A DNA stretch of 64,000 nucleotides, from contig VANK01000006.1 in the NCBI GenBank assembly GCA_008682415.1, positions 248,001 to 312,000 of the forward strand, written 5' to 3'. Below are positions 1,966 through 17,850 of this stretch, in pieces (the first letter of the stretch is position 1; each line of letters starts with the position of its first letter). Position numbers and translations under genes: made by a program. This DNA comes from Acidobacteria bacterium AB60 (lineage in GTDB: Bacteria > Acidobacteriota > Terriglobia > Terriglobales > Acidobacteriaceae). Under the pieces are notes generated by a model. The model did not search any database and was not told the DNA's origin. It saw only the letters and a list, made by a program, of their open reading frames with translations.

Positions 1966-2046
1966 GGGGCGTAAAGGATCAGTTTAGCAATCGAGGACGA
2001 ATGGAGTGGGCGCGGAAGGTCTGTGCTGAGCGTTGTGCCCGCCCGC

Positions 2047-2074
2047 CCTAACAAGTTAGGACGGGGCACCCCGT
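2047..2074. repeat. Two adjacent small palindromes between murC and the DUF3224 gene
   Basis: CCTAAC-AA-GTTAGG is followed immediately by ACGGGG-CA-CCCCGT. Both are perfect short inverted repeats lying just 3' of the DUF3224 stop codon. There is no clear T-tract on either strand, so this is a hairpin pair or repeat fragment rather than a confident terminator. Confidence 0.45.
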
Positions 2075-2078
2075 CGTG

Positions 2079-2549
2079 TTAGTCGGGAAGGGTGTAGTCG
2101 AGGTCGTAGGAGTGCTGCCCTTTGTCGATCTTGATGGTGAAGGTGCCGGTGATGCCCTTGAGGTCGCCGGTGCCGGAGCCGGGCACGACGATGACGTTCA
2201 TCTTGGAGCCGGTTGCATCCATGGTGGCGAAGTGCTGCAGCGCGAAGCTGCCGTGCTTGCCGTTCAACGTGCCGGTGACTTTCTCGATGGCGACGTAGCC
2301 GGCCGCGCCCTGTTTGAAGTCGCCGCCGGTGAGCATCTCGCCCTGTGTGGTGGCTTCGAGATCCCCGTGCAGTTGCTTGTTGATGGTGAAGCGGGCGAGG
2401 CCTTCGGGCGGTGCAGGCTCGAGAGGATGAACGTCGACCGTGAAGGTGCCGTGCGCATGTTGCATAGGGTGCTCCTTGGGAACTGCGTTGGTTTGCGGCG
2501 CGAGGACGGCGAGGGCGAGACAGGACGCAATGAGAACGTGCATGCGCAA
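2079..2549 (-). CDS. DUF3224 domain-containing secreted protein
   Basis: A 156-residue protein with an N-terminal signal peptide (hydrophobic LIASCLALAVLA, then a likely cleavage after about residue 22). The mature part carries the DUF3224 pattern: an initial GTFTVDVHPLE strand, alternating beta segments, and a C-terminal GTGDLKGITGTFTIKID followed by YDLDYTLPD. DUF3224 proteins form small beta-barrel-like folds of unknown function. A second in-frame ATG lies two codons downstream at 2543. The gene sits upstream of murC on the same strand, 113 bases away, but is functionally unrelated to cell-wall synthesis as far as can be seen. Confidence 0.85.
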   Translation of the reverse strand: MRMHVLIASCLALAVLAPQTNAVPKEHPMQHAHGTFTVDVHPLEPAPPEGLARFTINKQLHGDLEATTQGEMLTGGDFKQGAAGYVAIEKVTGTLNGKHGSFALQHFATMDATGSKMNVIVVPGSGTGDLKGITGTFTIKIDKGQHSYDLDYTLPD

Positions 2550-2774
2550 CCAGAATAACGGTTCGCGCGCGCCGATGAAGCGCGTGGAGAACCCGCGCCG
2601 ACACGTATTTCCGCAAAAGTTGCGGGGATTTATTTCTTGGGGAGGGGCGCAACAATCGGGGAGCGCCCGCGTTTAGGAGGGACATGTACGGCAGCAGTGA
2701 GGCAGCAGCAACCAAGCCTCAGAGCAGCAGCCGGACGGGCCCAGTAGATCGGGCCGAGGAGCAACGGAGGATTT

Positions 2775-3185
2775 ATGAAGAACCTGGGCAAATGGGTGTT
2801 GAGCGCAGCAGTACTGGCAGGAGCTATGGGATTGAGCACGACCTCAGCCCACGCCGCACAGTTTGGAGTGTATGTGCAGAGCGGGCCGGCTGCGTATGTT
2901 CCTCCCTGCCCTGGACCGGGATATGTGTGGGCGGCCGGCTACTGGAATGACGGCTACTGGATTCCCGGGCGCTGGAACTTTGTGGGCGTGCGGCGCGACT
3001 TCGACCGCGATGACTACCCCCGGGTGTACTACCGCGACCACGACCGCGACTGGGACCGGCACCGTGATTGGGACCGCGACCGGGACTGGGACCGCCATCG
3101 CGACTGGGATCGGGACCGGGATCGGCGTTGGGACCGCGATGGGGACCGGCACTGGGATCGCGATCGGGATCATGACCGCAGGTAA
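2775..3185 (+). CDS. Secreted YXWGXW-type protein with an Asp/Arg/His/Trp low-complexity tail
   Basis: A 136-residue secreted protein. Residues 1-28 form a signal peptide ending SAHA. The next 45 residues carry PPCPGPGYVWAAGYW and GYWIPGRW, like the short YXWGXW motif found in small exported proteins. From about residue 86 to the end the chain is built almost only of Asp, Arg, His and Trp in a loose DRDWDRH rhythm. Such a chain is zwitterionic, probably disordered, and could bind metal or polyanions, but that is inference. The start has a purine-rich site (GGAGG, 2765-2769). It reads toward a strong hairpin terminator at 3226-3260. Function unknown. Confidence 0.8.
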   Translation: MKNLGKWVLSAAVLAGAMGLSTTSAHAAQFGVYVQSGPAAYVPPCPGPGYVWAAGYWNDGYWIPGRWNFVGVRRDFDRDDYPRVYYRDHDRDWDRHRDWDRDRDWDRHRDWDRDRDRRWDRDGDRHWDRDRDHDRR

Positions 3186-3225
3186 ATACATTTAGCTAAA
3201 ACAGTTCCCGTCCCTGCGCATGATG

Positions 3226-3260
3226 AAAACGGCCTCTCCTTCACGGGGGAGGCCGTTTTG
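3226..3260 (+). terminator. Rho-independent terminator
   Basis: An 11-pair stem starting AAAACGGCCTC is extended by a wobble pair and two further pairs, closes a short loop and ends in TTTTG. It follows the Asp/Arg/His-rich gene. A-runs at the left base give it terminator character on both strands. Confidence 0.85.
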
Positions 3261-3467
3261 ATTGGGGCAAACAAAGATGCGCGGAAGCGGAGCAGGAAGG
3301 CCGCGCAGGGACCGCAACTTTCTCGCTGGACTGTTGTTCTAATGATTGGAAGCCGGAGACAGGGCGAACCTGGCCCGGCGGTGCGGAAGGGGAGGCGGGC
3401 TCGCAGACGAGCGGTCTCCAGCCCGGATCGGGAAAGGCGGAGCCGGGCGGCACATGGGAGGAATATC

Positions 3468-3977
3468 ATGCGCAGTTTTCGCCTTGCGTTGTTGGCGGCT
3501 CTCCTGGTGATTCCCTTCACCATGAAGGCGAATGCTCAGGTTTCTGTCGGTGTTGGCGTGGGAATCGGTCCGGCAGTGGTGGCGGCTCCGGTGGAATACG
3601 GACCGCCGGTATGCGACTGGGGGTACTACCCCTACTATCCTTACGCGTGCGCGCCCTACGGGTACTACGGTCCTGACTGGTTTGTCGGGGGCGTGTTCGT
3701 GGGCGCGGGCCCCTGGTACCACTGGGGCTGGGGACGTCCGTGGGGTTATCGCGGCGGGTACTGGCACGGCGGGTACGGCTACCATGGCGGCTGGGGCGGC
3801 GTTCGTCCGGGCTACGGATTCCATGGAGGCTACATCGGGCACGGCGGCTATCCGGGAGCGCGCCCGGGGTATGGCGGCGGGTTCCACGGTGGTGAAGGAT
3901 TCCATGGTGGCGGCGGGTTCCATGGCGGCGGCGGTTTCCACGGAGGTGGTGGATCCCACGGCGGCGGACACCGCTAA
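3468..3977 (+). CDS. Secreted Gly/His/Tyr-rich protein
   Basis: A 169-residue secreted protein. The ATG at 3468 follows GGGAGGAAT and begins a clear signal peptide ending KANAQ. The mature part starts with VSVGVGVGIGP, then a Tyr/Pro/Trp segment (YYPYYPYACAPYGYYG) and a long Gly/His stretch that ends in repeated FHGGGG units. The reading frame stays open upstream to 3258, but that part has no signal peptide and is probably untranslated leader. Gly/His repeats may bind metal; no enzyme motif is visible. With the Asp/Arg/His-rich gene upstream it forms a two-gene plus-strand insert between murG and murC, each gene closed by its own hairpin terminator. Confidence 0.78.
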   Translation: MRSFRLALLAALLVIPFTMKANAQVSVGVGVGIGPAVVAAPVEYGPPVCDWGYYPYYPYACAPYGYYGPDWFVGGVFVGAGPWYHWGWGRPWGYRGGYWHGGYGYHGGWGGVRPGYGFHGGYIGHGGYPGARPGYGGGFHGGEGFHGGGGFHGGGGFHGGGGSHGGGHR

Positions 3978-4014
3978 GCGCACGCAACAGTTCGAACGAG
4001 GTTGATGAAAGAAG

Positions 4015-4044
4015 GCCCGGTCTGCTTCGGCAGCCGGGCTTTTT
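4015..4044 (+). terminator. Rho-independent terminator
   Basis: GCCCGG-T-CTGC pairs with GCAGCCGGGC around a TTCG tetraloop and is followed by five T residues. It ends the Gly/His-rich gene and lies 20 bases from the convergent 3' end of murG. Confidence 0.9.
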
Positions 4045-4064
4045 CGTGTCCGGAGAATCGGGGG

Positions 4065-7887: not shown

Positions 7888-8064
7888 GGCACTATCCTCA
7901 GAGCAGTTCCACGGTTTGTGTAGCGCTACCAGTATCTCCGAGAAGGCGTCTTCCTGAGGAAGGTTGGCCCGGGCAGATGCGAGATCGCGAAGGCGGCGAT
8001 TGTGGAACCGTTCCAGCAGCCGGCTCCTTCATTGTCTACCGAAGCGAGCCTGGCGGCGCCGGCT

Positions 8065-9198
8065 CTAGCGCAATTTGAGGGTGGTGAGTGCAAACAATGC
8101 AAACACCAGGGCGCCAATCCAGAAACGGGCGATGACCTTGGACTCGCTCCAGCCGAGCTGCTCGAAGTGGTGGTGCAGGGGCGCCATCTTGAAGATGCGC
8201 TTTTTGCGGAGCTTGTAGCTGCCTACCTGGAGCATGACGGAGACCGCCTCGAGGATGAAGATGCCGCCGATGAAGGGCAGCAGGAGCTCCTGGCGAATGA
8301 TGACGGCAACCGTGCCGATGGCGCCGCCGAGGGCGAGGGAGCCGACGTCGCCCATGAAGACTTCAGCGGGGTGGGCGTTGTACCAGAGGAAGCCGATGGA
8401 GGCGCCGACCATGGAGCCGCAGAAGACGGTGAGTTCGCCGACGTCGGGCATGTGCTGGAGCTCGAGGTAGTCGGCGAAGACTACGTGGCCGCTGAGATAA
8501 GTGAGGACGGCGAGGGCGCCGGAGGCGATGATGGTGCAGCCGATGGCCAGGCCATCGAGGCCGTCGGTGAGGTTGACGGCGTTGGAGGAGCCCATCAGGA
8601 CGAAGAGCACGAAGGCGATGAACGGGAGAAAGGCCAGGAACTCAAGGTGCGGAACGTGCTCCCAGAAGTGCCAGATGAGATCAGGCCGCCAGCTCTTCAC
8701 AAACGGGACGCTCAAGCGGGTGGAGAAGAGCTTGAATTGCTGCAGGATGGAGAGCGCGACGGCCACGATGATGGCGGCGAGGGCCTGCCCGGCGAGCTTC
8801 TGGCGGCTGGTGAGGCCGAGATTGCGGCGCTTGACCACCTTGATGTAGTCGTCGGCAAAACCCACGGCGCCAAAGGCGAGCGTCGAGAACACCGTGATCC
8901 AGACAAAGGGGTTGGCGGGGTTGGACCACAAAACCGTAGGCAGCAGGATGGCGATGCAGATGAGCACGCCGCCCATGGTGGGAGTGCCGGACTTCTTCTG
9001 ATGGGACTTCGGTCCGTCTTCGCGGATGTACTGGCCGATCTGGAACTCGCGCAGGGTCTTGATGACGTAAGGGCCGATGAAGAGGGCGATGAGGAGCGCG
9101 GTGAGCGAGGCGAAGGCGGTGCGAAATGTAAGGTAACGAAATATGCGGAACGGGTGGAAGAACGGATAGAGCTTTTGATAGAGCAGCCAGTAAAGCAA
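8065..9198 (-). CDS. mraY: Phospho-N-acetylmuramoyl-pentapeptide-transferase
   Basis: Inner-membrane enzyme that transfers phospho-MurNAc-pentapeptide to undecaprenyl phosphate, forming lipid I. At 377 residues it has about ten membrane segments. Family signatures are [16 protein letters not shown], the catalytic aspartate region [13 protein letters not shown], and [13 protein letters not shown] near the C-terminus. The start MLYWLLYQ fits the usual short periplasmic N-terminus. In most dcw clusters it follows murF directly. Here a beta-lactamase gene stands between them, ending 81 bases before the mraY start. Confidence 0.97.
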
Positions 9199-9279
9199 AG
9201 AGCCTCCAAAACGGGCCTTCGAGCGGGGATTTTTCTCGATTCTACTCGCGGTTGCGGCTGTACGGCTTGAAGATCCGGT

Positions 9280-10143
9280 TCACTTTCGAGATGCCTGCTG
9301 GCGCTTGAAGTTGGCCTCGAAGGCGGACTCGCGCTCCGCCACGTAGGCCTGGTAGTCGCGGTTCGAGGGGTAAGGATTCGGGTCGTGCTTCTGCAAGCGG
9401 TCGTAGAACGATTGCAGGTCGAAGGCGCTGCCGTGCGAAGAGAGGAAGATGTCGCAAGGGAGCGCCTTGAGGGTGGCGAACTCGGCGCGAAAGTCGTCGG
9501 CGATGTGCGGGTAGGTGGGGTTGTCCACGAGCTTGTAGCTGTCGAGGACGTTGGGGCTGCCGAGGATGAGGACGTGCAGGGTCTTGCCGGACTGCTTGAC
9601 GTCCATGGTCCAGGTGGTGGTGCCCTTGGTGTGGCCGGCGGTCTTGTGGGCGGTGAGCGTGGTGCCGCCAAGGCTGACGGTATCGCCGTCGTGGAGCTCG
9701 CGATCGACGTGGGCGGGTGGGAACCACATGGATTTGTCATGCGCGAACTGGAAGTCGGTTCGGCCGCCAGTTTCAACCACGGAGACGTCGCCGTCCATCA
9801 CTTCGTAGCGCGCGCCGGTGAGGCGCTTGATCTCGGCGCTGCCGCCGGCGTGGTCGTAGTGGCCGTGGCTGACGAGAAGAATCTTGGTGTCGCGGAGCTT
9901 GAATCCGAGCTTCTCGATGCTCTGCCGGATCTGCGCGGGCGAGGACACATAGTTGCTGTTGAGCAGGATGTTGCCTTGCGGCGTGACGATGAGATAGGCG
10001 GCGAGGTCCTGGCTGCCGACGTAGTAGAGGTTGCCGCCGATGCGAAACGGGGGGAAAGGATTGGTCCACTCGGCGGGGACCGCGCGGAGCGACGGGACGG
10101 CCAAGACGAGAAGAGATACGGCGAGGAATGCGAGACGCTTCAA
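9280..10143 (-). CDS. Subclass B3 metallo-beta-lactamase
   Basis: Secreted or periplasmic zinc hydrolase of the B3 class, expected to open beta-lactam rings. I start it at the TTG at 10143, preceded by GGAGG at the right spacing, giving 287 residues with a signal peptide (KRLAFLAVSLLVLAVP). All zinc ligands of B3 enzymes are visible: HGHYDH (H93, H95, D97, H98), H171 in AGHTKGTTTW and H237 in SSHGSA. The stretch NPTYPHIADDFRAEFATL followed by ALPCD matches the conserved B3 region. The start overlaps the murF stop in TTGA, so translation is likely coupled. It sits between murF and mraY, so it is probably made together with the enzymes that build the lactam target. Activity on antibiotics is inferred from residues only. 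Confidence 0.93.
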   Translation of the reverse strand: MKRLAFLAVSLLVLAVPSLRAVPAEWTNPFPPFRIGGNLYYVGSQDLAAYLIVTPQGNILLNSNYVSSPAQIRQSIEKLGFKLRDTKILLVSHGHYDHAGGSAEIKRLTGARYEVMDGDVSVVETGGRTDFQFAHDKSMWFPPAHVDRELHDGDTVSLGGTTLTAHKTAGHTKGTTTWTMDVKQSGKTLHVLILGSPNVLDSYKLVDNPTYPHIADDFRAEFATLKALPCDIFLSSHGSAFDLQSFYDRLQKHDPNPYPSNRDYQAYVAERESAFEANFKRQQASRK

Positions 10144-11546
10144 GGTGCCTCCGGGGAAGGAGCGGTGAGGATTTCGAGAGCCCGCTCGAGGCGCACGCCG
10201 CGGGAGCCTTTGAGGAGGACGACGTCGCCGGGCTGCAGATTGGCCTTCATCCAGTGGCCCGCGTCCTCCGCGGATTCGAGGAAGAGCGCGGCCACACCGG
10301 CGAGACACGCTGCGGCGGCCAGGTGCCGCGCGTTGCCGCGAACGCCTATAACGAGATCGAGTTTGGCTTCGGCGGCGGCCTTGCCGCACTCCGCGTGGAG
10401 AGCCTGGCCCTGTTCGCCGAGCTCGAGCATCTCGCCGGCGACGAGGATGCGGCGCTGCGCGGGGCGTGCGGCGAGGGTGCGGATCATGGACCGCAGCGCT
10501 TCGGGGTTAGAGTTGTAGCTGTCGTTGAGGATGGTGGCTCCCGCGATCTCCAGCACCTGCCCGCGCTTGTCTCCGGCGGTGAGCGACTCGAGCGCCGCGG
10601 CGGCGGCCTGGCGATCGACGCCCGCTTCGAGCGCGACAGCCAGACCCGCCATGGCATTCTGCGCGTTGTGCGCGCCGAGCAGGCGCAGGCGCAGCGAGCC
10701 TTCTTCGTCGCGCGCGCGATAGCGGATGTGGAGGCCTTCGAGGTCTTCGGTGACGGAGAGGATCTGCGGATCGGCGCAGGGACCGGCGCCGAAGTAAACG
10801 ACGCGGCCGGCGAAGTCGCGCCCGAACTGGGAGACGAAGGCGTCGTCGCAGTTGAGGAAGGCTACTCCGGTTGCCGGCAGGGACGCGACCAGCTCGAACT
10901 TCGCGCGGGCAATGCCGATCTGGCCGTCGGTGAAGTTCTCAATGTGCGCGGTGCCGACGTTGGTGACCACGCCCCAGTCGGGCTGCGCGATGCGGGCGAG
11001 GGCGGCGATCTCGCCGATGTGGTTCATGCCCATCTCCACCACCGCGATGTCGTGCTCGGGCTCGAGGCGCAGCAGCTGCATGGGCAGACCGAATTCGTTG
11101 TTCAGATTGCCTTTGGACTTGTGCACGTTGAGACCCGCGCCGAGAGCGGCGGCGATGGCCTCCTTGGTGGTGGTCTTTCCCGCCGAGCCGGTGACCGAGA
11201 CGAGGCGTTTTCCCCAGCGGCGGCGGACGTGGGACGCGAGTCCCTGCAGCGCAACCAGCGGCTCCTCCGCGATGAGCAGCGGCACCGCAAGCGCGCTCTC
11301 GGGAAGGCCCGCCACACGCGCGCGAGAGACCACCGCACCTACCGCGCCGCGTTCCACGGCGGCGGCGACGAAGTCGTGTCCATCGAAGCGTTCGCCGCGA
11401 ACCGCGAAGAACAGCTCGCCGGGCCCGAGGGTGCGGGAGTCGATGGAGTATCCCTGAATGGTGATGGCCCCGGCGTTCACGATGGTGGGCGGGGCTTCGA
11501 GCACCGCGCTCGCGCCGACAGCGGCTTCAGCAAGTGTGAGCTTCAT
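10140..11546 (-). CDS. murF: UDP-N-acetylmuramoyl-tripeptide--D-alanyl-D-alanine ligase
   Basis: Cytoplasmic Mur ligase adding D-Ala-D-Ala to the UDP-MurNAc tripeptide. At 468 residues it has family length. The N-terminal uridine-binding domain contains GYSIDSRTLGPGELFFA. The ATP loop is TGSAGKTTTKEAIAAALG. The central and C-terminal parts carry MGMNHIGEIA, NVGTAHIENF, LNDSYNSNPEA and KGSRGVRLE, all typical. Its start overlaps the murE stop by four bases (ATGA), and its stop overlaps the start of the downstream beta-lactamase (TTGA), so three genes in a row appear translationally coupled. Confidence 0.97.
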   Translation of the reverse strand: MKLTLAEAAVGASAVLEAPPTIVNAGAITIQGYSIDSRTLGPGELFFAVRGERFDGHDFVAAAVERGAVGAVVSRARVAGLPESALAVPLLIAEEPLVALQGLASHVRRRWGKRLVSVTGSAGKTTTKEAIAAALGAGLNVHKSKGNLNNEFGLPMQLLRLEPEHDIAVVEMGMNHIGEIAALARIAQPDWGVVTNVGTAHIENFTDGQIGIARAKFELVASLPATGVAFLNCDDAFVSQFGRDFAGRVVYFGAGPCADPQILSVTEDLEGLHIRYRARDEEGSLRLRLLGAHNAQNAMAGLAVALEAGVDRQAAAAALESLTAGDKRGQVLEIAGATILNDSYNSNPEALRSMIRTLAARPAQRRILVAGEMLELGEQGQALHAECGKAAAEAKLDLVIGVRGNARHLAAAACLAGVAALFLESAEDAGHWMKANLQPGDVVLLKGSRGVRLERALEILTAPSPEAP

Positions 11547-13054
11547 TGCTCTCCACCATATCCCATGGAGGCCAGCGCGGCCGTGGCCACCTGCGCATCG
11601 TCGAACGGGATGGTGCGGTCGGCGAGGATCTGTTCTTTCTCGTGCCCCTTGCCCGCAAGCAGAACGACGTCGCCGGACTTCGCCTCCGCAAGCGCGATGC
11701 GGATGGCTTCGGCACGATCGGGTTCGACGAGATAGCGCGTGCCCGTCGCCTTAAGCGCCGGTTCGATCTCGGCCAGAATCGCGCCCGGATCCTCGGAGCG
11801 GGGATTATCGCTGGTGGCAACGACGAAGTCGCTTCCCTGCCCCGCGGCCTGACCCATCTTGGGACGCTTGGTGCGGTCGCGATCGCCGCCGCAACCGAAG
11901 AGTGTGAGGACACGGCCGCCGGAGGAGGCGACGATCTGCCGCGCCAGCGCGGTGAGATTGCGCAGCGCATCGTCCGTGTGCGCGTAGTCGACGATGACCG
12001 AGAAGGGCTGGCCTGCGTCCACCGGTTGGAAACGGCCGGGGACCGGCTGCAGACGCGGAACAGACGTAACGAGCTGGTCGAAGGGAATGCCGCGCGCGTG
12101 CGCCGCGGTGAACGCCGCGAGAAGATTCAGAGTGTTGACCTCGCCGGCAAGACGCGACGTGATCTGCGCGGAGCCGGCAGGCGTTTCGAGATCGATCACC
12201 GCGCCGCCGGGAGTGAGCCGGTGATTGGCCGCACGCCACTCGCCGGCCTTGATGCCGTAGAGGCGCACCTCGGCTCCCGCACGGCGCGCCGCCGCGGCGA
12301 TCTGCTTGGCCCGCTCATCGTGCACGTTGATGACGGCCACGCGCGGCGCCGGATACTGCGTGCCGTCGAAGAGCAGGCGCTTGGCCAGGTAGTACTTCTC
12401 CATGGAGCCGTGGTAGTCGAGATGATCGCGCGTGAGATTGGTGAAGACCGCAACGTCAAAGGGAATCCCCGCGGCGCGTCCTTGATCAAGCGCGTGGCTG
12501 GAGACCTCTGTGACGAGTTCCGTGGCGCCGCGGCCCGCGCCCTCCGCCATCAGTTCGAAGAGATCGCGCGACTCCGGCGTGGTGTGCAGCGAGGGGCGCA
12601 CCTCGCCGGCCACGTGATACTCGATGGTGCCGACGAGGATCGTTTTGCGCGCCGCGAAGTTCAGAAGCGACTCGGTGAGAAAGGCCGTGGTGGTTTTGCC
12701 GTTGGTGCCGGTGATGCCGGTGGCCGCCAGCCTGCGCTCGGGATGCCCGAAGAAGGCGGCCGATGCCTGCGCCAGCGCGCGGCGGCCGTGTTCCACCTCG
12801 AGCACGGGCCGGCCCGCATGATAGACCAGCAGATGATCGAAGGTCTGGCCGGAGTCGGTAATGATGCCCAGCGCGCCGGCGTTGATGGCCTTCTCCACAT
12901 ATCGATTGCCATCCGTGGTGCCGCCCTTCATGGCCACGAAGATGGACCCTGGACGAACGCGGCGGGAGTCGTATTCAATGCCGGTGATGTCGGCGGCGGA
13001 GTCGCCGGTCGCGCCCACCGCGTCCACTTCGGCAATGAGGTCCTTCCAATTCAT
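11543..13054 (-). CDS. murE: UDP-N-acetylmuramoyl-L-alanyl-D-glutamate--2,6-diaminopimelate ligase
   Basis: Cytoplasmic Mur ligase adding the third stem-peptide residue. It has 503 residues. Signatures are YDSRRVRPGSIFVA near the N-terminus, the ATP loop TGTNGKTTTAFLTESL, and VTEVSSHALDQGR. The motif TSDNPRSEDP contains DNPR, which marks meso-diaminopimelate rather than lysine specificity, so the organism should have Gram-negative-type A1-gamma peptidoglycan. It follows ftsI by 38 bases and overlaps murF by four. Confidence 0.97.
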   Translation of the reverse strand: MNWKDLIAEVDAVGATGDSAADITGIEYDSRRVRPGSIFVAMKGGTTDGNRYVEKAINAGALGIITDSGQTFDHLLVYHAGRPVLEVEHGRRALAQASAAFFGHPERRLAATGITGTNGKTTTAFLTESLLNFAARKTILVGTIEYHVAGEVRPSLHTTPESRDLFELMAEGAGRGATELVTEVSSHALDQGRAAGIPFDVAVFTNLTRDHLDYHGSMEKYYLAKRLLFDGTQYPAPRVAVINVHDERAKQIAAAARRAGAEVRLYGIKAGEWRAANHRLTPGGAVIDLETPAGSAQITSRLAGEVNTLNLLAAFTAAHARGIPFDQLVTSVPRLQPVPGRFQPVDAGQPFSVIVDYAHTDDALRNLTALARQIVASSGGRVLTLFGCGGDRDRTKRPKMGQAAGQGSDFVVATSDNPRSEDPGAILAEIEPALKATGTRYLVEPDRAEAIRIALAEAKSGDVVLLAGKGHEKEQILADRTIPFDDAQVATAALASMGYGGEQ

Positions 13055-13092
13055 CTCGTGCTCGATTGTAGACGGGTGGGTAAGGGGGAGGG

Positions 13093-15351
13093 TCAGCGCG
13101 AACCGCGAACTACGATGTGCGTGCCGAGGTTCACGAGCGTGCCGGGTGCCGGAGCCTGTTCGCGCACGGTACCGCGCCCGGAGATCTCAACCGGCAGTCC
13201 GGCGTTCGCGGCAGTCTCAATCACCTTGCGCATGGGCAGTCCCACCAGCGACGGCACCTTGATCTGCTGCCCAGTGTTCATCACCACGGGCGCGGATGGC
13301 GCAGCGGGCTGCGCCGTGTCTGAAGACCCAACGCTGTGGGCATGCGGCTCGGTAGTTTTAACCGCGATCTGTGTGGGGGAATCCGCCTTCGGCGCGGTGC
13401 GCGGCTCCGGATCGGGGGAGGGCTCAGGAGCGGCGCGCAGCGGATCGTCTTTGGGCAGATCGTTCACCGCCGCGTAGAGCGCGTCCACATCGGCCTGGTT
13501 GTCGTCGTCATCTTCGCGCGCGGGCTTGTCGGGCTTGGCCTTGGTCTTGGGCGGCTGAATCTCTTCGTCGTGCGGCACGCCGAGATACTCCAGGATGGGC
13601 TGCGCCACCTCGGCGAAGACCGGCGCCGAGACAGCCGTGCCGTAGTAGGAGCCGACCTTGGGATCGTCCATGACCACGGCGATGGCGATGACCGGATTGT
13701 TGACCGGCGCGATGCCCGCGAACGACGCGATGTGCATAGTCTTGGAGTAGCGATGGGTGAGCGGATCGATCTTCTGCGCGGTGCCGGTTTTGCCGCCCGC
13801 CGAGTAGCCATTCAGCTGCGCCGGCTTGCCGGTGCCGAAGAGCACCACGCCCTCCATCATCTTGCGCATCTGCGCGGCGGCCATCTCGGAGATAACACGA
13901 TGCGCACCGTTGGGCAGCGGATTGGGCAGCTCTTCCCCGGCCTTGAACGGCGATGCGGTGGGCGCCTGCTTCTGCCCGTTGCTATCGACCTGGTCCGGCA
14001 TCAGCACGCGAGGAGGAAGATACGTTCCGCCGTTGGCGATCGTTGAGACCATCGATACAAGCTGCAGGGGCGTGACGCCGACCTCCTGGCCAATCGCAAG
14101 GGAGCCGATGGAGGAGCCGTTCCAGCGCGATGTGGGGCGCAGCAGGCCGCGAGTCTCGCCGGGCAGCTCCGCGCCGGTGCGCGCGCCAAAGCCGAAGTCG
14201 CGAATGTATTGATAGAAGCGGTCGTTGCCCAGCTTGAGTGCGAGCTTCACCGCGGCCACGTCGCTCGACTGCTCCAGCGCCTTGTGCACCGGCACTACGC
14301 CCATGTGCTCGCCCTGGTTGTCGTGGATAACGCGGCCGGCCAGCGTGATGGCGCCGCCCTGGCAGTCGATCAGGTCATCAGGCCGGGCCACCTGCGCGTC
14401 CATCGCCGCCGAGTAGGTCACCAGCTTGAAGGTCGATCCGGGCTCGTAGACATCGCTGACCGCGTGGTTCTTCAGCAGCTTCGGCGTGGTGTGGCGAAAC
14501 TGGTTGGGATTGAACGTGGGGCGGATGGCGAGCGCGAGGATCTGGCCGGTATGCACGTCCTGCACCACCACCGTGCCGTTGTCGGCGCGGGTGCGCTCCA
14601 TGGCGTGATCGAGAGCGCGCTCCGCCATGAACTGGATGTTGGCATCGATGGTGAGCACGAAGTTGCGCCCCGGCTCGGGCTCATGCTCGGTAGATCCCAG
14701 AACCTTGCGGCGTGCGTCCATGGCAGTGAACATGCGGCCGGGCACGCCGTGCAGCTGCGGCTCGAACTTCTGCTCCAGCCCGCCCAGGCCGTTGTCGTCA
14801 ATGCCGACGTAGCCGAGGACCTGCGCGGCGATCTGGTTATCGGGATAGAAGCGCTGGAACTCTTTCTGGAAGTAGATGCCCTTCAGGTTCACCGTCTTCA
14901 ACCGGGCGGAGACCTCGGGCGTAACCCGGCGCGCAATCCATGCGAAGCCGTTGTTCTTGGAGAGGCGGTTGGCGATCTGCTCTTCACTCGTCTGCGCGTC
15001 GGCAGGGTCGGTGTGCACGATGGCCGCGAGGGTGCGAGCCGCGGTCTTCTTGTCGTCAATCTCGGTGGGCACCGCGTAGACGGAGTCGGCCTGCACGGTC
15101 ATGGCCAGCTCATGCAGGTTGCGGTCGAAGAGCACGCCGCGGCGCGGCGCCACCTCAAAGGTGCGCTGCTGCTGCTTTTGGGCGCGCTCCACGTATTCAT
15201 GGTGGCGCATGATCTGCAGCCAGAAGAGACGGGTGCCGATGGCCAGCGCCCACACCGTGAAGAAGAGGCAGACAAGCCAGAAGCGCGCCACCCGGAGGGG
15301 AATGGCGCGCGGAGTCGTGTTGCGGGTCCGGTTGAGAACGGCGGTGTGCAT
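13093..15351 (-). CDS. ftsI: Division-specific transpeptidase FtsI (PBP3-type) with a C-terminal PASTA domain
   Basis: Septal D,D-transpeptidase, 752 residues, anchored by one N-terminal membrane helix (about residues 21-45). The dimerisation domain covers about 65-230 and the transpeptidase domain about 230-610. The catalytic serine is S306 in EPGSTFKL. The third motif is KTG (521-523) in GGKTGTAQK. The second motif, normally SxN, reads SSD (362-364). A long Pro/Asp/Glu/Lys-rich linker (about 610-695) leads to one PASTA domain (IKVPSLVGLPMRKVIE to the end). PASTA on FtsI is more common in Gram-positive bacteria but also occurs in Acidobacteria and delta-proteobacteria. It is the likely partner of FtsW and FtsL and the expected target of beta-lactams. 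Confidence 0.95.
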   Translation of the reverse strand: MHTAVLNRTRNTTPRAIPLRVARFWLVCLFFTVWALAIGTRLFWLQIMRHHEYVERAQKQQQRTFEVAPRRGVLFDRNLHELAMTVQADSVYAVPTEIDDKKTAARTLAAIVHTDPADAQTSEEQIANRLSKNNGFAWIARRVTPEVSARLKTVNLKGIYFQKEFQRFYPDNQIAAQVLGYVGIDDNGLGGLEQKFEPQLHGVPGRMFTAMDARRKVLGSTEHEPEPGRNFVLTIDANIQFMAERALDHAMERTRADNGTVVVQDVHTGQILALAIRPTFNPNQFRHTTPKLLKNHAVSDVYEPGSTFKLVTYSAAMDAQVARPDDLIDCQGGAITLAGRVIHDNQGEHMGVVPVHKALEQSSDVAAVKLALKLGNDRFYQYIRDFGFGARTGAELPGETRGLLRPTSRWNGSSIGSLAIGQEVGVTPLQLVSMVSTIANGGTYLPPRVLMPDQVDSNGQKQAPTASPFKAGEELPNPLPNGAHRVISEMAAAQMRKMMEGVVLFGTGKPAQLNGYSAGGKTGTAQKIDPLTHRYSKTMHIASFAGIAPVNNPVIAIAVVMDDPKVGSYYGTAVSAPVFAEVAQPILEYLGVPHDEEIQPPKTKAKPDKPAREDDDDNQADVDALYAAVNDLPKDDPLRAAPEPSPDPEPRTAPKADSPTQIAVKTTEPHAHSVGSSDTAQPAAPSAPVVMNTGQQIKVPSLVGLPMRKVIETAANAGLPVEISGRGTVREQAPAPGTLVNLGTHIVVRGSR

Positions 15352-15369
15352 CGGCAGTTCGACCCTTTG

Positions 15370-15879
15370 CTATTGCACCTGCTGGGAGACGGGGGCGGCG
15401 GCCATGGCCAGCGACGGAGCGCTCGCATCGGGATGAGCATTGGGATGGACCACCTGCCCGGGCTGCGGTTCGCCCAGTCCCAGCTGGCGAGCCATGCCGT
15501 CGATGCGGCCAGGCTGGGTGAGCTGCGCCTCGGAGAGGCGAAGCTGGCGATTCTGCTCGCGCAGTTGCTCCAGCGTCTGCTTCTGGCTCTCCACGTGGTA
15601 GGAGACCTCGATGGCGCTGAAGTGCTGCAGCCCGTAGACCATGATCAGCGTGAACAGCAGCGCGACCGCGGCGGCGAAGCTGCGCATCTCGCGGGCGCGC
15701 ACCGGGTCGGGAGCCTTGACCAGGCGCGTGTTGTCAAAGTGCTTGGCGAAGAAGAACTCAGGCGTGCGCGTGCCGCGGCGGCGCATGGCCTGGGCGGCCA
15801 TCAGCTCGGTGTTGCGCTCGGCGACGCGGGCATTCCAGCTGCGCCCGGTCTCAAAATAGGTCGTGGTTGCTGCCGCCAT
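15370..15879 (-). CDS. ftsL: Cell division protein FtsL
   Basis: A 169-residue bitopic membrane protein. A cytoplasmic N-terminus of about 68 residues is followed by one membrane helix (FAAAVALLFTLIMVYGL) and a periplasmic coiled-coil stretch (about residues 95-125, HVESQKQTLEQLREQN). It ends with the IDGMARQLGLGEP segment common in FtsL and a Pro/Ala-rich tail. FtsL forms the FtsQLB scaffold that activates FtsW-FtsI. Sequence conservation in the family is weak, so the call rests on topology and on position between rsmH and ftsI. It lies 18 bases upstream of ftsI. Confidence 0.88.
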   Translation of the reverse strand: MAAATTTYFETGRSWNARVAERNTELMAAQAMRRRGTRTPEFFFAKHFDNTRLVKAPDPVRAREMRSFAAAVALLFTLIMVYGLQHFSAIEVSYHVESQKQTLEQLREQNRQLRLSEAQLTQPGRIDGMARQLGLGEPQPGQVVHPNAHPDASAPSLAMAAAPVSQQVQ

Positions 15880-15889
15880 CTTCCCCCTC

Positions 15890-16013
15890 CAGTGATCAGT
15901 GAACCGTGGTCAGTGATCCGTTACCTTCAGTCGTTCCAATTTCATAAAACCGTGGGCTCATCTTGCGCCTTACGGCCGAGTTCTGATCACTGATCTCTGA
16001 CCACTGATCACTG
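15890..16013. repeat. Modular inverted-repeat hairpin (CAGTGATC family), copy 1
   Basis: The left arm (15890-15919) and right arm (15983-16013) are built from reiterations of CAGTGATCAGTG and GGTCAGTGATC and are reverse complements with small offsets, separated by about 60 bases. The right arm contains the stop codon of rsmH. A closely similar unit lies at 51791-51849 between rpsI and rpsB. Confidence 0.75.
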
Positions 16014-16907
16014 TCTTTCCGCTGCTCTCAACTTCGCACTGCGCGATCGCGGATTGCGATCGATCTCTTCTTCGCCCGCCGTGACCGGCTTCTTCGTCAG
16101 GATGTTCCAGGTCCCGTTCTGCGCGCCCGCGCGCAGGCTGTCTTTGACGATGCGATCTTCCAGGGAGTGAAAACTGATGACGGCCAGACGTCCGGAGGTC
16201 TTAAGCAACGTGGGTGCGGCCTCCAGCAGCGCCCGTATCTCGTCCAACTCGCGATTAACGTAAATCCTGATTCCCTGAAATGTTCGTGTTGCCGGGTGGA
16301 TCTTGTCCTGTTTCATTGCCGGGGCGGCTGCGGCGACGATTCGGGCCAGTTGCCCAGTTGTCGTTACCGGCCGCCCGCGCACAATGGCTCTGGCGATTCT
16401 CCGCGACCTCCTTTCCTCTCCGTATTCGTAGATAAGGTCCGCCAGCTCGCGCTCGCTCGCCTCATTTACCACTTGTGCGGCGGTCTCGCCCCGGCGCGTA
16501 TCCATGCGCATATCCAGGGGCCCATCCGCCATAAAACTAAAACCGCGCGATGCTTGGTCCAGCTGCAGGCTGCTGACGCCGAAGTCGGCCAGCACGGCAT
16601 CCACTGATCCGGGCGCCACGTGGAGCGGCGCGGAACTGAAGGCCTCGCCGATTAACGTCACCTCCGGCGCCTCCGTGCCAAGCTGCTCCCGCACTGCGTC
16701 GAGCCTTGCCTGGGCAAGCTCCATCGCCTGCGGGTCCCGGTCGAACGCGATCAACTTGCCCTTCGGTCCCAGCCGCCGGACGATCTCGGCGCTATGCCCC
16801 GCAAATCCGAGCGTGCAGTCCACCACGGTGCTTCCGGGCCGCACGGCCAGATACTGCATCGCTTCTGTCAATAAAACCGGCACATGGCGTTCGCGTTCGT
16901 TCGTCAT
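16008..16907 (-). CDS. rsmH: 16S rRNA (cytosine(1402)-N(4))-methyltransferase
   Basis: S-adenosylmethionine-dependent methyltransferase of 16S rRNA C1402, formerly MraW. Its 299 residues match the family. Signatures are RHVPVLLTEAMQYL at the start, DCTLGFAGHSAEIVRRL for SAM binding, DFGVSSLQLDQASRGFSF, DMRMDTRRGETAAQVVN, and the C-terminal VISFHSLEDRIVKD. It lies 22 bases downstream of mraZ. Its stop codon is embedded in a palindromic repeat arm. Confidence 0.96.
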   Translation of the reverse strand: MTNERERHVPVLLTEAMQYLAVRPGSTVVDCTLGFAGHSAEIVRRLGPKGKLIAFDRDPQAMELAQARLDAVREQLGTEAPEVTLIGEAFSSAPLHVAPGSVDAVLADFGVSSLQLDQASRGFSFMADGPLDMRMDTRRGETAAQVVNEASERELADLIYEYGEERRSRRIARAIVRGRPVTTTGQLARIVAAAAPAMKQDKIHPATRTFQGIRIYVNRELDEIRALLEAAPTLLKTSGRLAVISFHSLEDRIVKDSLRAGAQNGTWNILTKKPVTAGEEEIDRNPRSRSAKLRAAERQ

Positions 16908-16929
16908 GTGTCCCCCTGAGGGGCTCCCG

Positions 16930-17376
16930 CTACTGCTCGCTCAAGATGGCTGCCACGCGCTTGCGGCGTTCATCCGTCAAGCCGTCCGCCGGCAGTTGCT
17001 TCTCAAGCGTCTCGAGGTTGTACACCTCGATATGAAGGCCCTTCCCGAGAACCGCGACCTCCGCATCGAGCCTTGCCTTGCCCCGAAGAATGGGCGGCAA
17101 CAAAAGCCGGCCCTGGTTGTCCATCTCCACCTGCTGGCCGTAGAAGTTCACCAGGTTCTGGTACTCCTCGACGGCGTCATCCAGGGAACTTGCCCGTGCC
17201 AGCCGTTCTTCCACCTTTTCCCACTCCGGCAGCGGCCAGATCTCGGCGCGCTTGCCATTGGCGCTGGTGATAAAGAACTGGGTGACGTTCTGGGCATCCA
17301 CCAGCGCCTTGAAGGCAGCAGGCATCTTCAGCCTGCCCTTCTCATCGATCTTGGCGGGGTGGTTGCCGCGAAACAT
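16930..17376 (-). CDS. mraZ: Transcriptional regulator MraZ
   Basis: DNA-binding protein with two SpoVT/AbrB-like half-repeats, 148 residues, normal length. The first DNA-binding hairpin is KIDEKGRLKMPAAFK (about residues 9-23) and the second EMDNQGRLLLPPILR. In E. coli MraZ forms a ring and represses its own dcw operon by binding direct repeats upstream. Here a matching set of three repeats with 10-base spacing lies about 170-200 bases upstream (17547-17572), immediately downstream of a candidate promoter. It is the first gene of the minus-strand cluster. The ATG follows an AACGAGGAA ribosome-binding site. Confidence 0.95.
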   Translation of the reverse strand: MFRGNHPAKIDEKGRLKMPAAFKALVDAQNVTQFFITSANGKRAEIWPLPEWEKVEERLARASSLDDAVEEYQNLVNFYGQQVEMDNQGRLLLPPILRGKARLDAEVAVLGKGLHIEVYNLETLEKQLPADGLTDERRKRVAAILSEQ

Positions 17377-17546
17377 TGCATTTCCTCGTTCTCAGGAGGG
17401 CCCTGCGTGAATCTCTAGAACCGGTCTGGCCGTACGTTCCGGGTGGTCAGGCTGGTTCCCCAGGTTCTTGCTTCGTTCAAAAAGTGGAGCGAAGGGATGA
17501 ATCTCGAAGTATCCTTGCCTTTGGAGAGCATTTTGACTCTATCTTG

Positions 17547-17572
17547 GTCCCGTTTGCTCCCTTTCACTCCAC
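17547..17572 (-). promoter_or_regulatory. MraZ operator: three direct repeats at 10-base spacing
   Basis: Read on the minus strand, the boxes are GTGGAG, AGGGAG and CGGGAC, their first bases exactly 10 apart with 4-base A-rich spacers. MraZ operators described in other bacteria are three or four GGG-containing repeats with about one helical turn spacing. The array begins 10 bases downstream of the -10 of the candidate promoter, where bound MraZ would block transcription. Confidence 0.7.
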
Positions 17573-17582
17573 TTTAGACACG

Positions 17583-17612
17583 ATCTTACCCGTGTTGCTG
17601 GGCCGCGTCCAA
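17583..17612 (-). promoter_or_regulatory. Candidate sigma-70-type promoter of the dcw operon
   Basis: On the minus strand TTGGAC (17607-17612) and TAAGAT (17583-17588) are 18 bases apart. The predicted start would be near 17576, giving a leader of about 200 bases that includes the MraZ boxes. This is a match to consensus only. Confidence 0.55.
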
Positions 17613-17850
17613 CAGGAAATTCCGCCTGATCTTGCATTTAGGGCGATTCGTTAAAGTTGGATAAGCCAGTTGGGGTGCACACCCGCCCACACCACAACAT
17701 CTTGTGTTTACTGCTCTGGTTCTGCTGGACGATTGGGAACTTGGCAAATGCCGAGAAGGTCGTGTATGGCGAAATAAAAGCGAAAATGTACACCGCGTCG
17801 GCGCCGTTTCCGTTCCGTCGCGTCTCTGGTCAGGCCGCTAGAATCGACCC

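Follow-up and report, generated by a model that had tools for sequence, protein, structure and literature searches.

Why does a gene that reads as a subclass B3 metallo-beta-lactamase (here bla) stand in the middle of the dcw cell-wall cluster of Acidobacteria bacterium AB60, and what might its position there mean? The window, by which is meant the whole 64,000-nucleotide stretch of DNA that was analysed, carries these members of the cluster:

16930..17376, minus strand: mraZ, the opening gene of the cluster (Pfam MraZ)
15370..15879, minus strand: ftsL-like gene (TIGR02209, E 1.8e-6, under the curated cut-off)
13093..15351, minus strand: PBP, an FtsI-type transpeptidase with a PASTA domain (Pfam)
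11543..13054, minus strand: murE, with a 4-nt ATGA overlap with murF (Pfam)
10140..11546, minus strand: murF, the upstream, overlapping neighbour of bla (Pfam Mur_ligase domains)
9280..10143, minus strand: bla, subclass B3 metallo-beta-lactamase gene, complete, 287 aa, TTG start at 10143, TGA stop at 9280, predicted signal peptide at about residues 1-21
8065..9198, minus strand: mraY, starting 81 nt past the bla stop (Pfam Glycos_transf_4 and MraY_sig1)

The order and strand are those of the canonical cluster (mraZ-rsmH-ftsL-ftsI-murE-murF-mraY-murD-ftsW-murG-murC), but the window has an extra gene between murF and mraY, as well as non-dcw ORFs between murG and murC. The latter occupy positions 1966-4064; among them are short ORFs that are rich in repeats and read in the opposite direction (2775-3185 and 3258-3977). 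The initial annotation had stated that the murF-mraY junction usually has no extra gene, and this was borne out by seven bla-less relatives in which mraY follows murF after some 85-365 nt. bla nevertheless has the marks of a dcw-operon gene, as it lies on the same strand, with a 4-nt overlap on one side and an 81-nt gap on the other, in an order that is kept in relatives. Antisense ORFs over this region (e.g., 8002-9270, plus strand) were set aside as high-GC shadow frames. The PBP at 13093..15351 is likely a beta-lactam target encoded within the same cluster.

In a profile search, the bla product scored 320.1 bits against the NCBIfam model NF033105 (bla_subclass_B3), above the cut-off of 240. 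All six zinc ligands are present, namely H93, H95, D97, H98, H171 and H237 (H116, H118, D120, H121, H196 and H263 in BBL numbering), which completes both the Zn1 set of H93, H95 and H171 (H/Q116, H118, H196) and the Zn2 set of D97, H98 and H237 (D120, H121, H263); the B3 identity and the ligands first proposed for this gene are thus upheld. Among 44 aligned dcw rows, in which the window copy was entered twice, five of the six ligands are invariant and H116 is replaced by Q in a single row, as against Q116 in 28 of 98 non-dcw B3 rows. The nearest solved relative is FEZ-1 of Legionella (Fluoribacter) gormanii (E 8.8e-89), which has the same zinc ligands and 52% identity, and to which an AlphaFold2 model of the product (mean pLDDT 91.5, low confidence confined to the N-terminus) superposes at 0.8 A over 257 columns. 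FEZ-1, BJP-1, LRA-12 and GOB-18 were the top PDB matches to this model, which has the alpha-beta/beta-alpha fold of B3 enzymes. The blaFEZ exception model NF000216 gave 307 bits where its cut-off is 600, and by these scores the product is FEZ-like and outside the FEZ alleles in the naming sense.

A protein with the same MBL fold and another activity, of the HARLDQ type or some other hydrolase, was also considered, since the HARLDQ not-B3 model aligns too. Its 203 bits, however, fall far under the cut-off of 350, whereas the B3 equivalog model is passed, and the product has no HARLDQ motif but HGHYDH in its place, with the HxHxDH pattern intact; this candidate was rejected as extremely improbable. 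Profile, ligands and predicted fold all point to a true subclass B3 enzyme, very probably one that destroys penicillin-type antibiotics. Its N-terminus has a KR n-region, a hydrophobic core and a cleavage site near the boundary of LRA and VPAEW, judged by eye and hydropathy alone, and from this signal-peptide-like character a periplasmic location is predicted. A second B3 gene is present on another contig of the same genome (L002, G000:C11:788339-789112), with 40% identity to the dcw copy and a long tree branch.

The distribution of the gene was followed in 80 species genomes of the genus, with matches called at E <= 1e-30 and neighbours called from murF and mraY coordinates. bla was present in 55 congeners and absent from 25; among high-quality genomes, 31 of 42 had it. 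In 52 of the 55 gene-bearing congeners murF stands immediately upstream. This adjacency is beyond chance, as the three exceptions are a contig that starts just before the match (G220), a fragmented assembly (G029) and a single relocated copy (G345), and the integration of the lactamase into the dcw cluster, as initially annotated, stands. The relocated copy (L281) is a B3 gene of about 60% identity, found away from murF and beside a GntR/FadR-type regulator-like ORF. A highly diverged dcw copy in G247 (L200; 47% identity, end branch 1.8) has its catalytic residues intact. The order murF-bla-mraY also occurs in a second genus, g30, where G117, G154 and G180 have it, and locus L125 (Terracidiphilus sp.; Occallatibacter per NCBI) has the same murF-bla order. 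A recent insertion confined to one genome, one of the outcomes that would have undone the original proposal, is excluded by this genus-wide conservation and by the GC3 of bla, which at 0.878 is inside the range of its neighbours.

Downstream of bla the order is looser. In 28 congeners the same contig carries mraY after bla, and in many others mraY-murD-ftsW-murG is found elsewhere, with several cases on long contigs, which marks a real split. The cluster splits just after murF-bla (L086, L087, L198-L201, L216 and L217 versus L238-L247), and bla keeps adjoining murF in the split genomes. The murF-mraY junction looks like a cargo slot. In the bla-less genome G026 a RES/Xre (ParS-type) antitoxin gene lies between murF and mraY (L269:1969-2412), and a similar protein is encoded upstream of mraY in G030 (L107:3217-3660). 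A 285-aa ORF separates bla from mraY in G001, and G009 has an unexplained gap of 1.3 kb at the junction. Such cargo, together with the splitting of clusters at this very point and repeated loss of bla (see below), is what would be expected if the gene were a bystander in a permissive slot, that is, a working resistance gene for which coupling to murF is a mere convenience of expression and for which there is no selection to match wall synthesis. Simple tolerance does not predict that bla should still adjoin murF after the cluster has split, and the conserved geometry of the start and stop, described next, also speaks against the bystander reading, which we consider unlikely.

Two features define the junction in the window:

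10140..10143, minus strand: TTGA, the 4-nt overlap of the bla start with the murF stop, read directly (murF TGA at 10142-10140)
10148..10152, minus strand: GGAGG ribosome-binding site of bla, seen in the sequence within the 3' end of murF

The overlap behind GGAGG had been described in the initial annotation, along with the ATGA overlap of murF and murE, and both were read again here. Across species, the exact 4-nt overlap recurs at 28 of 43 distinct murF-bla junctions, although the start codons differ (ATG in 15, GTG in 8 and TTG in 5), and GGAG, GAGG or AGGA is found at 22 of the 28. The first candidate bla start falls within -4 to +11 nt of the murF stop at 38 of the 43 junctions; in the other five it lies beyond this range, at a distance of 39 nt in G137. 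Translation from the coupled start gives a signal-peptide-like N-terminus, by hydropathy only, at 42 of 43 junctions, and the start assignments are therefore independently supported. At two loci (L021 and L199, in G028 and G179) the N-termini, MNRRDFL.. and MNRRHFL.., are twin-arginine-like, those of the other dcw copies being Sec-like. Translational coupling as first suggested is thus conserved as geometry, and the translation of bla is apparently tied to that of murF.

The history of the dcw copies was examined in two trees. In the tree of 142 rows, dcw placement needs one change (SH-aLRT 88). In the 64-row tree, the genus copies and that of G154 are grouped with support of 96 and those of G117 and G180 fall outside; a single clade of all dcw copies was not rejected by the test on this tree (p-AU 0.65), and the position of G117 and G180 shifts between trees. 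These results are compatible with one origin for the dcw copies. The possibility that the dcw copies of g30 arose separately, from non-dcw B3 genes of g30 itself, was tried and rejected, with a p-AU of 4e-30 for the one-clade tree, a value easily reached because the tested group mixes distant B3 lineages. Distances between bla sequences correlate with those of murF (r 0.61) and mraY (r 0.44), and none of 5000 permutations was as high, but nearest neighbours by bla and by murF distance agree in only 13 of 32 cases, so that some exchange of bla within the genus is possible. Close pairs have dN/dS values of 0.055-0.20, which indicates purifying selection on the dcw copies. The bla-less genomes are dispersed across the mraY tree, with 8 changes, which argues for repeated loss, and the bla of G337 has an in-frame stop. 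Purifying selection combined with repeated loss describes a gene that is useful yet dispensable, and the losses argue against an essential wall function.

This bears on the suggestion, also made in the initial annotation, that the enzyme has a role on a cell-wall intermediate, with the B3 fold acting on peptidoglycan or a muropeptide and beta-lactam hydrolysis being a side activity. The conserved place among precursor genes would suit such an enzyme, and another B3 gene lies next to murC and murB on a Caulobacteraceae contig. The suggestion is disfavoured, and now appears decidedly improbable, as bla is missing from those 25 scattered congeners, its catalytic residues match those of FEZ-1, a proven lactamase, and its product is predicted to leave the cytoplasm, where most precursor enzymes work. 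Family relatives elsewhere also have unrelated gene contexts. The order was covered by 298 genomes, 140 of which contain a match to the bla product at E <= 1e-30. Other genera of the Acidobacteriaceae have chromosomal B3 enzymes of the same family, at about 45-60% identity, and in those examined the genes lie outside dcw, with the three g30 genomes as the only exception. In Legionella, related loci (L137 of L. tucsonensis and L162 of L. anisa) are free of dcw genes for about 10 kb in both directions and show no coupling to murF.

The Caulobacteraceae contig (L182:205-4620, from a MAG) has a PenR-like LysR gene on the minus strand, divergent to a B3 lactamase gene on the plus strand that is followed by murC and murB; ddl- and ftsZ-like ORFs were read by eye after murB. 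The adjacent PenR-like beta-lactamase regulator indicates a resistance role for this B3, which also counts against a physiological substrate. The enzyme is closest to the CAU/MBL1b models and therefore represents an event separate from murF-bla; the arrangement, known from a single contig of a single MAG, seems to be an independent parallel. Where a chromosomal lactamase is inducible through a LysR regulator of the AmpR/PenR type, its supply is linked to the status of the wall. The arrangement proposed for the window would resemble these systems in that respect, but bla has no adjacent regulator gene, and the link would run via the operon and not via a muropeptide signal.

Expression under MraZ depends on the start of the cluster, where a further feature is found:

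17546..17573, minus strand: MraZ-box-like GG-repeats upstream of mraZ, three 10-nt units, AGTGGAGTGA AAGGGAGCAA ACGGGACC

A -10-like TAAGAT lies just ahead of them, at 17588-17583. A comparable block precedes mraZ in seven related loci when these are lined up by eye (L118, L119, L121, L122, L125, L126 and L082), and a repeat-run statistic exceeds shuffles in 5 of 8 loci. The repeats resemble the MraZ boxes of Mollicutes, which are direct repeats of AAAGTG[T/G]; MraZ is a repressor of dcw genes (PMC8475190). MraZ control of bla is plausible, and would hold only if the transcript from mraZ extends to bla. A search of the coding strand from 8000 to 17800 found no terminator-like site, and a transcript shared by murF and bla is inferred. 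A sigma-70 promoter scan of the region found nothing; an internal promoter in murF may still exist, since that consensus may not fit acidobacteria.

The probable explanation is that a FEZ-1-like B3 lactamase entered the dcw cluster behind murF before the sampled congeners diverged and has been inherited since, providing what we infer to be intrinsic resistance coupled to precursor synthesis. The dcw transcript would begin upstream of mraZ, and ribosomes finishing murF would re-initiate at the overlapping bla start with the help of GGAGG. The signal peptide would export the pre-protein, and the periplasmic enzyme would bind zinc and hydrolyse beta-lactams on their way to the PBPs, including the one from the same cluster. 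With bla apparently translated together with murF, lactamase would be made whenever wall building blocks are made, in a dose proportional to precursor synthesis, and resistance would be built in and non-inducible. Hydrolysis, a common transcript, re-initiation, regulation by MraZ and the selective value of the placement are the presumed parts of this scheme. Of the interpretation given initially, the enzyme class, its dcw integration and the coupling geometry stand, and the role on a wall intermediate is disfavoured. A broader version, in which a dcw-resident lactamase dosed through precursor coupling under MraZ has, in addition to external beta-lactams, a substrate that derives from the wall or is made by the cell itself, and in which the Caulobacteraceae arrangement was reached independently, seems improbable.

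The kind of enzyme is already known, and the conserved operon placement and coupling appear to be the new part: a keyword search of open papers on murF, mraY and metallo-beta-lactamases brought up no description of such a placement, and a literature search on the beta-lactam susceptibility of Occallatibacter or Terracidiphilus gave nothing useful. The finding bears on the reasons for which metallo-beta-lactamases are retained by environmental bacteria, and on their expression where there is no inducible regulator. A genus-wide lactamase with its start bound to murF offers a natural case, open to direct testing, in which resistance is linked to the pathway that it protects, and illustrates how, with no mobile elements involved, resident carbapenemase-like genes are able to last in soil.
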